DNA of 64,000 bases, from positions 873,001 to 937,000 of the forward strand of contig NZ_CP041982.1 of assembly GCF_014522305.1 (NCBI RefSeq), read 5' to 3'. This document shows positions 58,795 to 64,000 of this stretch, in pieces. Every line of letters begins with the position of its first letter. Position 1 is the stretch's first letter. Source of the DNA: Lactobacillus sp. PV034 (lineage in GTDB: Bacteria; Bacillota; Bacilli; Lactobacillales; Lactobacillaceae). A program made the position numbers and the translations under genes. The notes below the pieces were generated by a model. The model was given only the letters and a program-made list of their open reading frames with translations. It did no database searches and had not been told where the DNA came from.

Positions 58795-58828
58795 AAAAAC
58801 GGAAAGTTCAATTGAACTTTCCGTTTTT
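58795..58828. terminator. Bidirectional terminator galE / helicase operon
   Basis: A 34-bp perfect palindrome centred on CAATTG (58809-58814) has T runs on both sides. It lies three bases beyond the stop at 58831 that would be used by an unshifted helicase frame. Confidence 0.9.
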
Positions 58829-58871: not shown

Positions 58872-61049
58872 CTAATACACCATTAGCAAATTCTTTTTGA
58901 CAAGCTCATCAGGTAAAAATTCATCGTATTTATCAAATACTGGAACTTCATTTGGAAATACTAGCTCTAAGGGATCAAATTTTTCTCTTGCTTCTCTGCG
59001 TAACACTTCAAAGAACTGATCTTCATTTGCATCCATTGTAAAGGTCATAAAATAAGGCCTAGTTGATTCGAAATTTTTAAGCTTTAATTGATCCTTACAT
59101 TTGATTCTTAATAATCTCTCTAAAGCTAAAAATGCATAGCTGCCTGTCCAAGGGAAAAATGCCCACATTTTTCCACCTAGATTAATTAAAGAATGCCGAT
59201 CCAAACCGGCTTGTTGTGCGGTTTCGCGCAATTGTGCTAATCGTGCTTGCGCATTTTTCATCAGATATGGATACTGCTTATCTTCAAAAAGAATCTGCTT
59301 CATTCTTTGTAAAATTTTAGGATGAATGTCTCCTGCTACATCCCCAAAATATGCTCCAATATGTCCTTTTACGCCGTGACAATATACTTGATGCCGTTTA
59401 CGATCGATCTCATCTACTACCCATACACGTCCAGCAATGGCAATCTTATCTCCTACCGGCGGTGGCTTAACAATTGTCCCTAATTCTTCATTTGCAGCAT
59501 GAACACTAAACTCTTCATTTTCCATAAATACTGCATAGAACTTAAAGTTATTAACAATCTTTTCCCCAGCTAAGCCTAGAATCAGACCACCATTTTCAGT
59601 CTTTTGGATATGATCGATTTTTAGGAGGTACCGTAATAAAACTTGATAATCCTTTTGGCTGACATTATGAAAGTAAGCTAATGACAAAACCCGACTTGCT
59701 AATTCAGCCGGACTCATTTCACCACTTGCTGCTAAAGTAGACATAGTTTGATGATAAAGCAAACTGTAAGGCAGTCGATTCGGCTGAGGCGGCTCAACCC
59801 AATGTTCTTCTGCATAAAGTTGAATTAAGGCAATCCCTTGTAATAAGCTCCAAGGAATAAGTTCTGGTAACATTGCTCTTGATTCTGGATGTTCTTCACG
59901 CATAATAAAATGCATTTCAGGCGGTGTTCCTCTACGCCCAGTGCGTCCCATCCTCTGTAAAAAGCCAGAAACTGTGAAGGGTGCATCTATTTGATATGCA
60001 CTTTCTAATTTTCCTACATCTATTCCCAGCTCTAATGTCGCCGTAGCACAGGTAGACACATAGGCATCCGGATCTTTCATAGCATCTTCAGCTGTTTGGC
60101 GCAATGCGGGAGATAAGTTACCATGATGAATCAAAAAACGATCAGGTTCATGGCTATAGCTACAATATTCTCGCAATTCTTGGCAAACTGATTCACATTC
60201 CTCGCGACTATTAGTAAAGATTAAACTTTTCTTTCCACGAGTATGCTCAAAAATGTAGCCAATTCCTGGATCAGCTAAAGCAGGCGCAATGTCAGTTTTA
60301 GGTTCAACAATTTCTGCCGGATCAAAATTATCACTTGTTGCTTGAGGATCAGTTTGGTAAAAGTGTTCCATTGATAGTCGCCAAACTTGTTTACCATTTT
60401 GAACCTTCGGTGCACTAGTTTTACGCCCACTACCAGCACCTAAAAATTTGGCGGCAGCCGTCATATCTCCAATAGTAGCCGATAAACCCACTCTCCGAGG
60501 TTTAACTTGTGCTAATTTAGATAATCTTTCAAGCAAACAGAAAGTTTGTCCACCTCGATCACTCCGCAAAAATGAATGCAGCTCGTCAATTACAATATAT
60601 TTTAAACCATGGAATAAATCAGGAATGGCCATATGTTTGTTAATCATCAAACTTTCCAAAGATTCTGGCGTAATTTGTAATATTCCTGATGGCTTTTTTA
60701 ATAATTTACGTTTCTGCGTCTGGGCTACATCACCATGCCAACGCCAAATCTTGATCTCGGAATCCCTAGTTAAATCATTTAACCGATCAAATTGATCATT
60801 AATCAAAGCTTTAAGAGGGGCAATATAAAGCACCTGAGCTGAATCAGCTGGATTTTCACTTATATCTGAAAGAATGGGGAAAAAAGCTGCTTCTGTCTTA
60901 CCGGAAGCAGTCGAAGCAGCTAATAAAACATTATTTTCGGTATTAAAAAGCTCTTGCGCAGCTGCTACTTGAATGGGACGCAAACTTTGCCAACCTTGTT
61001 CATAAATATAATCCTGAATAAATGGAGCATATTGCTCAAATACATTCAT
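58872..61049 (-). CDS. Lhr/BrxHI-like DEAD/DEAH helicase, C-terminus frameshifted
   Basis: A 725-residue SF2 helicase. Walker A is in ASTASGKTEA (45-54), DELH at 155-158, SAT at 190-192 and QRMGRTGRRG in motif VI; then an Lhr-like winged helix and C-terminal domain. It is close in plan to BrxHI helicases that accompany BrxD. The start is the ATG at 61049 with GGGAGG about ten bases before; the ATG at 61058 touches that site. At 58894-58898 a run of five A (minus strand) leads to NLLMVY and a stop; with one extra A the frame continues EFANGVLDVSEMRK... to a stop at 58831. Third gene of the TerB-BrxD-like operon. Confidence 0.85.
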   Translation of the reverse strand: MNVFEQYAPFIQDYIYEQGWQSLRPIQVAAAQELFNTENNVLLAASTASGKTEAAFFPILSDISENPADSAQVLYIAPLKALINDQFDRLNDLTRDSEIKIWRWHGDVAQTQKRKLLKKPSGILQITPESLESLMINKHMAIPDLFHGLKYIVIDELHSFLRSDRGGQTFCLLERLSKLAQVKPRRVGLSATIGDMTAAAKFLGAGSGRKTSAPKVQNGKQVWRLSMEHFYQTDPQATSDNFDPAEIVEPKTDIAPALADPGIGYIFEHTRGKKSLIFTNSREECESVCQELREYCSYSHEPDRFLIHHGNLSPALRQTAEDAMKDPDAYVSTCATATLELGIDVGKLESAYQIDAPFTVSGFLQRMGRTGRRGTPPEMHFIMREEHPESRAMLPELIPWSLLQGIALIQLYAEEHWVEPPQPNRLPYSLLYHQTMSTLAASGEMSPAELASRVLSLAYFHNVSQKDYQVLLRYLLKIDHIQKTENGGLILGLAGEKIVNNFKFYAVFMENEEFSVHAANEELGTIVKPPPVGDKIAIAGRVWVVDEIDRKRHQVYCHGVKGHIGAYFGDVAGDIHPKILQRMKQILFEDKQYPYLMKNAQARLAQLRETAQQAGLDRHSLINLGGKMWAFFPWTGSYAFLALERLLRIKCKDQLKLKNFESTRPYFMTFTMDANEDQFFEVLRREAREKFDPLELVFPNEVPVFDKYDEFLPDELVKKNLLMVY

Positions 61050-61088
61050 CTGCTTCATCCCTCCCTTTATTAAAAAATAAACTCACAA

Positions 61089-62420
61089 CTAAATTGTAAA
61101 TTCAGTGTAATCTGCTCCTTTTTCATCGGACACTGCTTCCGACTTAGTGTAGCTAAACTCATCTGAATTGAGCAAGTCGCTAATTTGTTTGTCTGGATGT
61201 TGTAAGGTAATATCCAACAACTCAATAAAATCACGAATTACTTCACGCGGTGTAATATTACTATCTGCACCAACACGCCCATATTCAATCTTAATAAAAG
61301 TAGCTAGATCTTCGTCACTAATTGTCATTTCATAGCCATAAAGTGAAGCATGCATCTGGGCTAATTTCTCAGTTAAAACCAACATTTCTTCTGCATTTAA
61401 AGGTTCTAACTTAATCACAGGTGCATACATATCACTGGCACCTGCTTTTGAAAATTTTCCATTTGCTAAACGTGATCGCAAGGCTTCATAACTGTAAACT
61501 CCTCGTCTTCTATCTTCCACAGCTTGTGGCGTTGCACCCATAATAATTCCGAGGTACTTTGCTTTTCCTTGTAAAGCATCATTATACATCGTTAACATTT
61601 TTTCATAATTATATTGACGACTAATGCTATTAGGAATCTTATAGATATTTACAAGTTCATCAACCATTACCATTAATCCCGTATAGCCTGCTTGTCTAAA
61701 GAACATTGCAAATAGCTTAATATATTCATACCAATCATCATCTGAAATAATGATGTTAACTCCTAATTCGTTTTTAGCCTCTGTTTTGCGCGTGTATTCA
61801 CCTCTAAACCATTTAATTACTTTTGCCCTAGTCTCTTCATCATTATTTATATAGGCCTCATAGTACATCTTTAAAAGCTGCGCAAAATCAAAACCATGCA
61901 CTAGTTCGTTCAGACTTGAAATTACCTCATAGATTTTTTTGTCTACTAACTCAGAAAATCTACTATTTTCCTGACTCAAGCCGGATTCTTCCGCCACTTG
62001 TGCTTGAACTGAATTAATCCAGCGATCTAAAATTAACGGTAAAGCTCCACCTTCAGGACGAGTCTTAGTGGCTAAATTTTGAATTAACTCACGATAAGTT
62101 GCAAGGCCCTGTCCCTTAGTGCCCTGCAATCTTCTTTCAGGAGAAAGATCGCCATCTACTACAACAAAATTCTTATCCATTACATAGTTACGAATCGCTT
62201 GTAGTAAAAAGCTTTTTCCCGAACCATATCGGCCCACAACAAAACGGAAAGAAGCTCCACCTTCACTAATAATATCAACATCATGAAGTAACGCTTCTAT
62301 TTCTGCCTTTCTTCCAACCGTAATATATGGCAAACCGATTCGTGGCACTACGCCACCCTTTAAAGAATTTAAAACAGTTTGAGCAATTCTTTTAGGGATT
62401 CTACGCTTTTGTTCAGTCAT
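61089..62420 (-). CDS. BrxD-like ATP-binding protein (DUF2791)
   Basis: A 443-residue AAA-type ATPase. The P-loop GRYGSGKS is at 63-70, with a Walker B-like LMVMVDEL about residue 250 and the R-finger region YSYEALRSRL. The start KRIPKRIAQTVLNSLKGGVVPRIGLPYITVGR and GASDMYAPVIKLEPLNAEEML are typical of the BrxD/BREX-associated DUF2791 group. BrxD in type 2 and related BREX loci is paired with BrxHI, as here. The ATG at 62420 lies two bases after the TerB stop, with GAGGAG inside the end of the TerB gene; the helicase starts 40 bases after its stop. Confidence 0.85.
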   Translation of the reverse strand: MTEQKRRIPKRIAQTVLNSLKGGVVPRIGLPYITVGRKAEIEALLHDVDIISEGGASFRFVVGRYGSGKSFLLQAIRNYVMDKNFVVVDGDLSPERRLQGTKGQGLATYRELIQNLATKTRPEGGALPLILDRWINSVQAQVAEESGLSQENSRFSELVDKKIYEVISSLNELVHGFDFAQLLKMYYEAYINNDEETRAKVIKWFRGEYTRKTEAKNELGVNIIISDDDWYEYIKLFAMFFRQAGYTGLMVMVDELVNIYKIPNSISRQYNYEKMLTMYNDALQGKAKYLGIIMGATPQAVEDRRRGVYSYEALRSRLANGKFSKAGASDMYAPVIKLEPLNAEEMLVLTEKLAQMHASLYGYEMTISDEDLATFIKIEYGRVGADSNITPREVIRDFIELLDITLQHPDKQISDLLNSDEFSYTKSEAVSDEKGADYTEFTI

Positions 62421-62422
62421 AA

Positions 62423-64000
62423 TTACTCCTCACTAAATAAATCTGCTAAATCTGGGAGATAGTCTGAAATAATTTGAGGCTCTTCTCCATCAAATTCGAT
62501 TATGCTATCCCCAATTTCATCAAATAATTTTTCATTAATAGCATCTGCCAAAATAGATGGCATTAAATGTTTTTGCTGCAAGTTTTCTTTCCATGAGGTT
62601 TGATGCCACAAAGACATTAAGAAAAAATACTCATCTGCAGTTAAACCATAAGGTAACGCTTTACTTGTTATTCCTTCAACAGTTTGTTCTTTTTCACTAA
62701 CCTTTTCTTGTTTTTCTTCTGTTTCTAATTCATTTTTAGCCTGACGCTCTAGCTCTTTTTCTTCCTGAGTTAATAAGCTTTCTCGAGTCTCAGAGGCATC
62801 ACTACGAATTTTATTTAGATGTTCAAAATTAATCCTAATTTTTGGTCGCTGAGCTTCAATTTCAGCTTGATGAAAGTCTTTTACAGCTTGTTCTATTACC
62901 AATACCATGGCTTGATTTAAAGTATTAGCTTTTAGCTTTCTTCCTCTCTGGTACTCTAAGCGACTTAAGCGATCAATTTCATGAAGTACTGCGTTTAATT
63001 TTGTTTTTTGACGCGTAACTGGAGAAAGGTATTGATAATAAGTCCGCCCATCCTTTTGATAAAATTTTCTATTTTCTGTAATTGAAAAAACTTCAAATTT
63101 TGGTTTTCTCTTGTAAAGAAGCGCACGTGAGAAAAAATAATATTCTCTTGTCGTCGTTACAAATAATACTTCTCTAGCAAAATCAAAATATTCTTTATGG
63201 GATAAAAGTTTATTCCAAACAAAAAAGATTAAATCTTGGTATTTATCTTTATCAAGTGGACTTTTACCATGATAAGTAGATATTTTCTCAAGATTTGCTA
63301 TTAGCTCAGTTGAATCCTTAGGAGTTAGTAATTCTTTTGTTAATTTATCTTCCTCTATTTCGGTAGATAATACCTTACTTTTATAATCTGTCAAATTATA
63401 AAAGACCACATAATCTTTAATCCAACGCTTGAGATAAGAGGCAATTTCAGGGTCAAACTGTAAGACATAATTGTTATATAAATCAGTTAATAATTTATAT
63501 CCTTCCTCAGGTTGTTTAATACCTATTTGGTTGAGTAATTCATAAATATAAATAAAGACATAGGATCGACTAGTTGCATCATAAACTCCCTTTCTTACTT
63601 TAGTACGCCAAGTAAAATAAGTTCTGAGTTGATGAACTGTCATATCATGATAAGTCGGATAAAAACGATTAAACACGTAATTCTGTTCATAATTATCCTC
63701 ATAGCCAGCCATTAATTGACCTTGATAATAAAAATTCTTTTGGCGACCTAAAGCAGGTAAAATCGTATAGTCGTAGCTTTGCAGCATTTTTTCAATTTCC
63801 GGGGGAATATTATTTATACTATTTTTACCTTTAATTGGCTCACTTGTTTTATGAGTCTTACGTGGTGGAATTCTTTCAGCATGATAAGTTTCTGATGCTG
63901 AACTTTTTTCTTCTTCTGGAATTAAGAGATACTGGCCTGTAGTTTTAACTTCACCATTAAGAGCTAATTTATAAGCATAATCTACTGTCTTTTTAACTTC
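62423..64000 (-). CDS. TerB-N/TerB-C domain protein, 3' part
   Basis: The frame is open to the right edge: 71 codons precede the internal ATG at 63787, so at least 525 residues are coded here and the true start is outside. TerB-N is visible as FYYQGQLMAGYEDNYEQNYVFNRFYPTYHDMTVHQLRTYFTWRTKVRKG. The C-terminal part (from about PYGLTADEYFFLMSLWHQTSWKENL) matches TerB-C. A charged coil (LLTQEEKELERQAKNELETEEKQEKVSEKEQ) joins them. TerB-N/TerB-C proteins occur with helicases and ATPases in predicted DNA-processing or defence systems. First visible gene of the operon. Confidence 0.85.
   Translation of the reverse strand, partial: EVKKTVDYAYKLALNGEVKTTGQYLLIPEEEKSSASETYHAERIPPRKTHKTSEPIKGKNSINNIPPEIEKMLQSYDYTILPALGRQKNFYYQGQLMAGYEDNYEQNYVFNRFYPTYHDMTVHQLRTYFTWRTKVRKGVYDATSRSYVFIYIYELLNQIGIKQPEEGYKLLTDLYNNYVLQFDPEIASYLKRWIKDYVVFYNLTDYKSKVLSTEIEEDKLTKELLTPKDSTELIANLEKISTYHGKSPLDKDKYQDLIFFVWNKLLSHKEYFDFAREVLFVTTTREYYFFSRALLYKRKPKFEVFSITENRKFYQKDGRTYYQYLSPVTRQKTKLNAVLHEIDRLSRLEYQRGRKLKANTLNQAMVLVIEQAVKDFHQAEIEAQRPKIRINFEHLNKIRSDASETRESLLTQEEKELERQAKNELETEEKQEKVSEKEQTVEGITSKALPYGLTADEYFFLMSLWHQTSWKENLQQKHLMPSILADAINEKLFDEIGDSIIEFDGEEPQIISDYLPDLADLFSEE

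Follow-up and report, generated by a model that had tools for sequence, protein, structure and literature searches.

Shango is an already known anti-phage system, whose original report in Escherichia coli is said to be that of Millman et al. 2022. It combines a TerB-type protein, an ATPase of the Pfam family PF10923, and a DEAD/DEAH helicase, and has been described in Pseudomonas aeruginosa PA14 and in E. coli. The Pseudomonas operon lowers the plating of many of the phages tried, and the E. coli system inhibits two phages modestly (both in the passages on Shango of PMC10250203); in the part of a 2026 review that deals with the system, its mechanism is listed as unknown (PMC12926258). BREX has a related ATPase and helicase, BrxD and BrxHI, whose genes are likewise adjacent, for example in the BREX-2 locus of Streptomyces (L249) and in the BREX-like locus L101, and according to an excerpt of PMC12278908, antiphage functions define what may be a distinct clade of helicases, that of Shango, BREX, Druantia, and Dpd. 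Here we analyze a stretch of 64,000 nucleotides from Lactobacillus sp. PV034 (contig NZ_CP041982.1, positions 873,001 to 937,000), hereafter the window, whose last 5.1 kb carry three minus-strand genes in the order sngA-sngB-sngC, coding for a TerB_N/TerB_C protein, a PF10923 ATPase, and an Lhr-like helicase. This operon is almost certainly Shango, and the Lactobacillus form is a variant of the system with an MmcQ/YjbR module and without the TerB core.

A first-pass annotation, made from the letters of the window, had proposed that a TerB-N/TerB-C protein, a PF10923 ATPase, and an Lhr-like helicase form a compact stand-alone defense candidate, with BrxD-like and BrxHI-like partners and without PglX or PglZ. 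The domains are indeed those (TerB_N 3e-31, TerB_C 2.7e-25, PF10923 1.3e-169, DEAD 7e-32), and the composition matches that of Shango. With the models of PADLOC, SngC is recognized at 5e-273 (906 bits, vs 417 bits for BrxHI), SngB at 1.3e-193 (642 bits, vs 161 bits for BrxD), and the full-length SngA at E = 7.6e-72 (241.6 bits, profile positions 32–526 of 528); adjacent and in the A-B-C order, the three genes make a complete Shango system. Three points go beyond the annotation: the system already has a name, its relatives have published anti-phage tests, and SngA has an additional N-terminal domain that lies mostly outside the window.

The matches of SngB and SngC to the BrxD and BrxHI models, lower as their scores are, would also suit the remainder of a BREX locus after loss of PglX and PglZ. 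However, a tree of 46 SngB and BrxD proteins separates 40 Shango rows from 6 BREX or BrxD-like rows with a support of 100/100, and the window SngB stands on the Shango side, among the rows of Lactobacillaceae and Lachnospiraceae (the order among the BREX rows is unsure, because several of them have long branches). A control locus from the same search, the BREX-like L101 with its PglZ-like gene, gives the reverse scores (384 bits for BrxD vs 222 bits for SngB). A search of this genome for PglZ (PF08665) found none, and among the 27 SngB-positive Lactobacillus genomes only 2 have it, hundreds of kilobases from sngB. The annotation had taken PglX and PglZ genes beside the trio as the mark of an ordinary BREX locus; the DNA past position 64,000 contains the start of sngA and then a Gfo/Idh/MocA oxidoreductase, and no methylase or phosphatase occurs among the 8 neighboring proteins scanned, PglX not having been searched genome-wide. 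On the tree, the profile scores, and the failure to find PglZ, we reject a BREX remnant as extremely improbable.

The full-length SngA has 626 amino acids, with an MmcQ/YjbR-like domain at about positions 1–115, TerB_N at 167–320, and TerB_C at 479–619, the last two above the Pfam cut-offs. Among solved structures, a profile built from 49 SngA N-termini matches 2kfp (E = 1.5e-20, positions 1–114), and 34 of the 49 N-termini match the Pfam family YjbR at E 0.1; taken by itself, the window SngA scores below the Pfam cut-off for YjbR. The double-wing fold of the domain was found through the relative from L. kefiranofaciens. The MmcQ/YjbR proteins PSPTO_3016 (PDB 3h9x and 2kfp) and E. coli YjbR (2fki) therefore have the same profile as the N-terminus of SngA and the same fold in its relative, but in SngA the domain is fused to TerB_N and TerB_C within an operon that also encodes SngB and SngC. 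Passages of PMC7641849 assign a double-wing fold to the MmcQ/YjbR family, predict that it likely binds DNA, and mention a fusion to TerB, Shango not being named in these passages. Among the matches listed, the open-licence literature showed neither a link between YjbR and Shango nor a mechanistic study of Shango.

The TerB core, PF05099, which is tabulated for Shango in an excerpt of PMC10952713, is absent from the window SngA and from all the SngA of two sets of relatives (0/42 and 0/23). A hidden core in the middle of the window SngA was considered and rejected, on these Pfam counts and on a profile-profile comparison giving it a probability of 0.3%. A custom hidden Markov model of the TerB core matched its five source proteins and none of 121 others, but we prefer the Pfam counts because this model is small and partly circular. 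Since PF05099 is lacking, the name of TerB protein rests, for the window SngA, on the flanking TerB_N and TerB_C alone. TerB_N, PF05099, and TerB_C are all matched in five plasmid SngA, from E. coli, Mesorhizobium, Paracoccus, Cetobacterium, and the archaeon Halocatena, the PF05099 score of the latter being just short of the cut-off (24.3 vs 24.4 bits). The E. coli member of this group (L246) served for the comparison with E. coli Shango and is a plasmid copy, not one of the phage-tested E. coli or PA14 proteins: its SngB is only 38.7% identical to the window SngB, and its SngA has TerB_N, TerB core, and TerB_C, whereas the window SngA has MmcQ/YjbR and no PF05099. We treat PF05099 as usual in Shango, not as defining, because forms that lack it fall within both the SngA profile and the SngB tree.

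SngA with TerB_N was found in 74 of the 80 named loci (none came from L113, L135, L144, L161, L175, and L181), these being the best 80 of 563 relatives as ranked by the window SngB, and so not a fair sample; it was also found in 20 of the 29 phylum loci, and L097, among the other 9, has SngA by PADLOC. The count of SngA without YjbR, 45, is an upper figure, because at least L147, L148, L154, L165, and L172 have their start at the end of a contig and two more, L138 and L185, cannot be relied on: the long N-terminal extensions of L128 and L138 are artefacts of the calling of open reading frames, and L185 has masked bases. A region of about 300 amino acids before TerB_N is common to six SngA (L084, L085, L087, L088, L091, and L096), with no Pfam match in the three scanned. 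In a Lactobacillus genome without SngB match, an open frame of 387 amino acids (L188, G013:C5) contains YjbR above the Pfam cut-off.

Two other SngA of Bacillota (L095 and L099) start with a TM2 domain, and one plasmid SngA (L244) has a peptidoglycan-binding domain. Such domains would be in keeping with a SngA that acts as a killing effector or as a signal-binding switch, with SngB-SngC sensing phage DNA and releasing SngA, so that the cell stops (abortive infection), and TerB-family proteins do recur across defense systems (Shango and Bunzi in an excerpt of PMC10952713, Dionysus in one of PMC12926258). Yet no nuclease, NADase, or pore domain is above the Pfam cut-off in the SngA scanned, and no such membrane domain is matched in the SngA of Lactobacillus. 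We hold this role of SngA to be unlikely, if not negligibly so.

SngB has the Walker A motif GRYGSGKS at residue 63, and its residues D253-E254 are invariant across 16 aligned SngB; the Walker B pattern, which matched 0 of 26 SngB, was too strict, the sequence in the window being VMVDE. In SngC there is a DEAD helicase match and a weak match, below cut-off, to the Lhr winged helix. The patterns of helicase motifs I, Ia, II, III, IV, V, and VI are all found in the window SngC; across 26 SngC, motif I is found in 23, motif VI in 22, and motif IV in 3. The best solved structure for the SngC profile is the ATP-dependent DNA helicase 5v9x (1.2e-27), which we take to be Lhr; for the SngB profile, none is found at E 0.01. 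No nuclease or toxin domain is above the Pfam cut-off in SngA, SngB, or SngC.

From these domains one may tentatively sketch a mechanism of recognition plus engine, which we regard as plausible and as yet short of probable. SngA would be the recognition subunit, its MmcQ/YjbR module and its C-terminal winged-helix-like end engaging the DNA of the invader or a structure of phage DNA and protein. With SngA loading them, SngB (the ATPase) and SngC (the helicase) would then spend ATP to unwind or strip the phage DNA, and replication would be blocked. Blocking rather than cutting is our first guess because of the lack of nuclease and toxin domains above cut-off. DNA binding by the MmcQ/YjbR domain is a prediction from the literature, but the domain of SngA is nearly neutral in charge.

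The end of the window SngC differs from that of its relatives. After about residue 724 (58872–58890, at the 3′ end of the gene) the protein, of 728 amino acids, diverges from the 25 other aligned Lactobacillus SngC, which have 738–745 amino acids and share a conserved tail; the tails were compared by eye only, a tail pattern having matched 0/100. The divergence could come from a genuine frame change late in the gene or from a slip in sequencing. If the tail has been lost, the operon could be a decayed or weak copy, once active and now impaired, and decay is known in the genus, where one locus has broken genes (G044) and another a shortened sngA without sngB and sngC (G030). But all the other parts are open, the motifs are present, and a minor sequencing error close to the 3′ end would look the same, so we judge decay of the window copy to be quite unlikely. 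Taken as a whole, a chromosomal Shango anti-phage operon with SngA as the specificity subunit is the reading that we favor, as a fairly probable one.

SngA evolves faster than SngB and SngC. Over the same 26 Lactobacillus loci, including the near-identical pairs L037/L038 and L025/L026, SngA averages a pairwise identity of 0.466, against 0.847 in SngB and 0.803 in SngC; among the neighbors, GalE has a mean of 0.927 (12 loci) and the upstream dehydrogenase one of 0.798 (14 loci). The distances of SngA and SngB correlate at 0.90, hence the two are mostly inherited together. The Nei-Gojobori ratios of nonsynonymous to synonymous substitution rates (dN/dS) range over 0.06–0.30 in sngA, 0.02–0.07 in sngB, and 0.02–0.09 in sngC, from 12 chosen pairs of which 11 were computable per gene, many with saturated dS. 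Thus sngA is under weaker constraint, no ratio exceeds 1, and the relatives are under purifying selection. Among 325 pairs, one is mosaic (G042/G058, loci L029/L036): identity is about 98% over the upstream gene and sngA and falls to 85–87% in sngB and sngC, the recombination tract ending near the start of sngB.

In type I restriction, specificity is carried by a separate subunit, HsdS, to which SngA may be compared. These data fit a SngA that is exchangeable. More speculatively, and with more doubt than conviction on our side, Shango as a whole would be modular, with SngA an exchangeable specificity subunit driving a conserved SngB-SngC engine. Lineages would swap the N-terminal sensor, which may be YjbR, TM2, the 300-amino-acid module, or absent, and the TerB core would come and go among them; sngA, about three times as diverged as its partners within the genus, would be replaceable alone by recombination; and the form of Lactobacillus and Lachnospiraceae, with YjbR and no TerB core, would be a distinct subtype. 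The comparison sets the conserved engine, SngB and SngC, apart from a fast-changing and domain-swapping SngA, and the natural sngA alleles with similar partners within one genus make the question of which protein decides the target of Shango directly testable by allele exchange.

The trio is patchy in Lactobacillus and not core. Among 61 genomes, one per species, SngB is present in 27 (23 of the 49 at high quality), with the trio complete in 26 of these and broken in G044; the other 34 have no SngB match, and 26 of them have a completeness of 90% or more and a contamination of 5% or less. In a phylum sample of 398 genomes, 50 match at E 0.001 and 23, the window's own included, at better than 1e-100; two of the weaker matches, L101 and L102, were scored, each with a better fit to BrxD than to SngB. 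The first-ranked named relative, among the matches listed, is L. kefiranofaciens (SngB 82%), in a ranking from which records very near the window may be excluded. A SngB-like gene is carried by 691 of 72,556 plasmid records, each at less than 60% identity, and 542 of these are predicted to be conjugative; some are BREX, such as a Streptomyces record. By genus, 449 of the records are from Klebsiella and 144 from Salmonella, examples elsewhere being L246 (E. coli) and L245 (Paracoccus). No phage record (0/50,697) matches SngB at 1e-5, and 6 viral contigs encode a relative.

The trio directly precedes galE in 12 of the 27 Lactobacillus loci, one dehydrogenase family lies upstream in many, and selection is purifying, all of which would be natural for a housekeeping operon of DNA processing, in repair or replication restart. 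The annotation had stated that this role would gain if the trio were syntenic core in every strain, which the patchy distribution, the broken loci, and the sites without the trio contradict. To look for these sites, galE was searched in the Shango-negative genomes, 26 out of 34 (8 with a completeness of 87% or less being excluded), and 20 galE neighborhoods from 16 of the 26 were examined. Four of them (G007, G024, G035, and G043) have the dehydrogenase, a gene of family F7, and galE, with no sng genes; they are not exact before-and-after pairs, because galE never follows sngC where F7 and sng genes co-occur. In G013, other genes stand between the oxidoreductase and galE, and 14 of the 20 neighborhoods have different neighbors or second galE copies; none of the 20 is a clean empty counterpart of the arrangement seen in the window. 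What appears to be a decaying Shango locus, judging from its gene content, is found in G030 (L223:9401-12038), where a shortened sngA lies next to a transposase-like gene, read by eye as that of an insertion sequence, and sngB and sngC are gone. Together with the plasmid-borne SngB-like genes and the restriction of phages by a relative (passages of PMC10250203), this makes a housekeeping role very unlikely. The defense function that the annotation proposed is supported, as a prediction, for the window operon.

The features of the locus are given in Table 1. Between sngA and sngB there are 2 bases (62421–62422), as the annotation had it, and between sngB and sngC there are 30 (61059–61088), where it had counted about 40. 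It also placed the left border at the terminator of galE, and this border is borne out: sngC and galE are convergent, with the palindrome between them, likely a terminator for both directions to judge from its symmetry and its A and T runs. The window edge truncates sngA, leaving 525 of its 626 residues inside; the start codon, at L002:6304, is 303 bases beyond.

Table 1. Coordinates of the Shango genes and of the palindrome in the window
Feature	Coordinates	Strand	Basis
sngA	62423..64000, 5′ end outside window to coordinate 64303	-	domain matches, PADLOC SngA
sngB, P-loop ATPase of BrxC/BrxD family (PF10923), 443 aa	61089..62420	-	Pfam, PADLOC, tree
sngC, Lhr/BrxHI-like superfamily 2 helicase, 728 aa	58872..61058	-	Pfam, PADLOC, helicase motifs
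24-base perfect palindrome with A run and T run, at the sngC and galE ends	58800..58823	.	read directly

On the right, the operon is bordered by the Gfo/Idh/MocA oxidoreductase, encoded at L002:6408-7376 on the sngA strand. Three elements were read directly in the interval between the two: a stem-loop that has a T run, an AGGTGA resembling a ribosome-binding site, and, 46 bases ahead of the sngA ATG, a TATAAT. A pattern scan for promoters and terminators gave fewer sites than in shuffled sequence and omitted both the palindrome and these elements upstream of sngA, which were read by eye. Farther upstream, after the oxidoreductase, come three tandem paralogues, an aldehyde dehydrogenase, an amino-acid permease, a tRNA-Asn, and an rRNA operon. 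The paralogues (133–138 amino acids, L002:7550-9036) are on the opposite strand, two were scanned and have no Pfam match above cut-off, and one to three copies adjoin Shango in some related species. The upstream dehydrogenase (L002:9122-10507) has 461 amino acids here, 473 in L041, and about 870 in many other Lactobacillus loci; from these lengths, the short form looks as if it were a two-domain enzyme minus one half.

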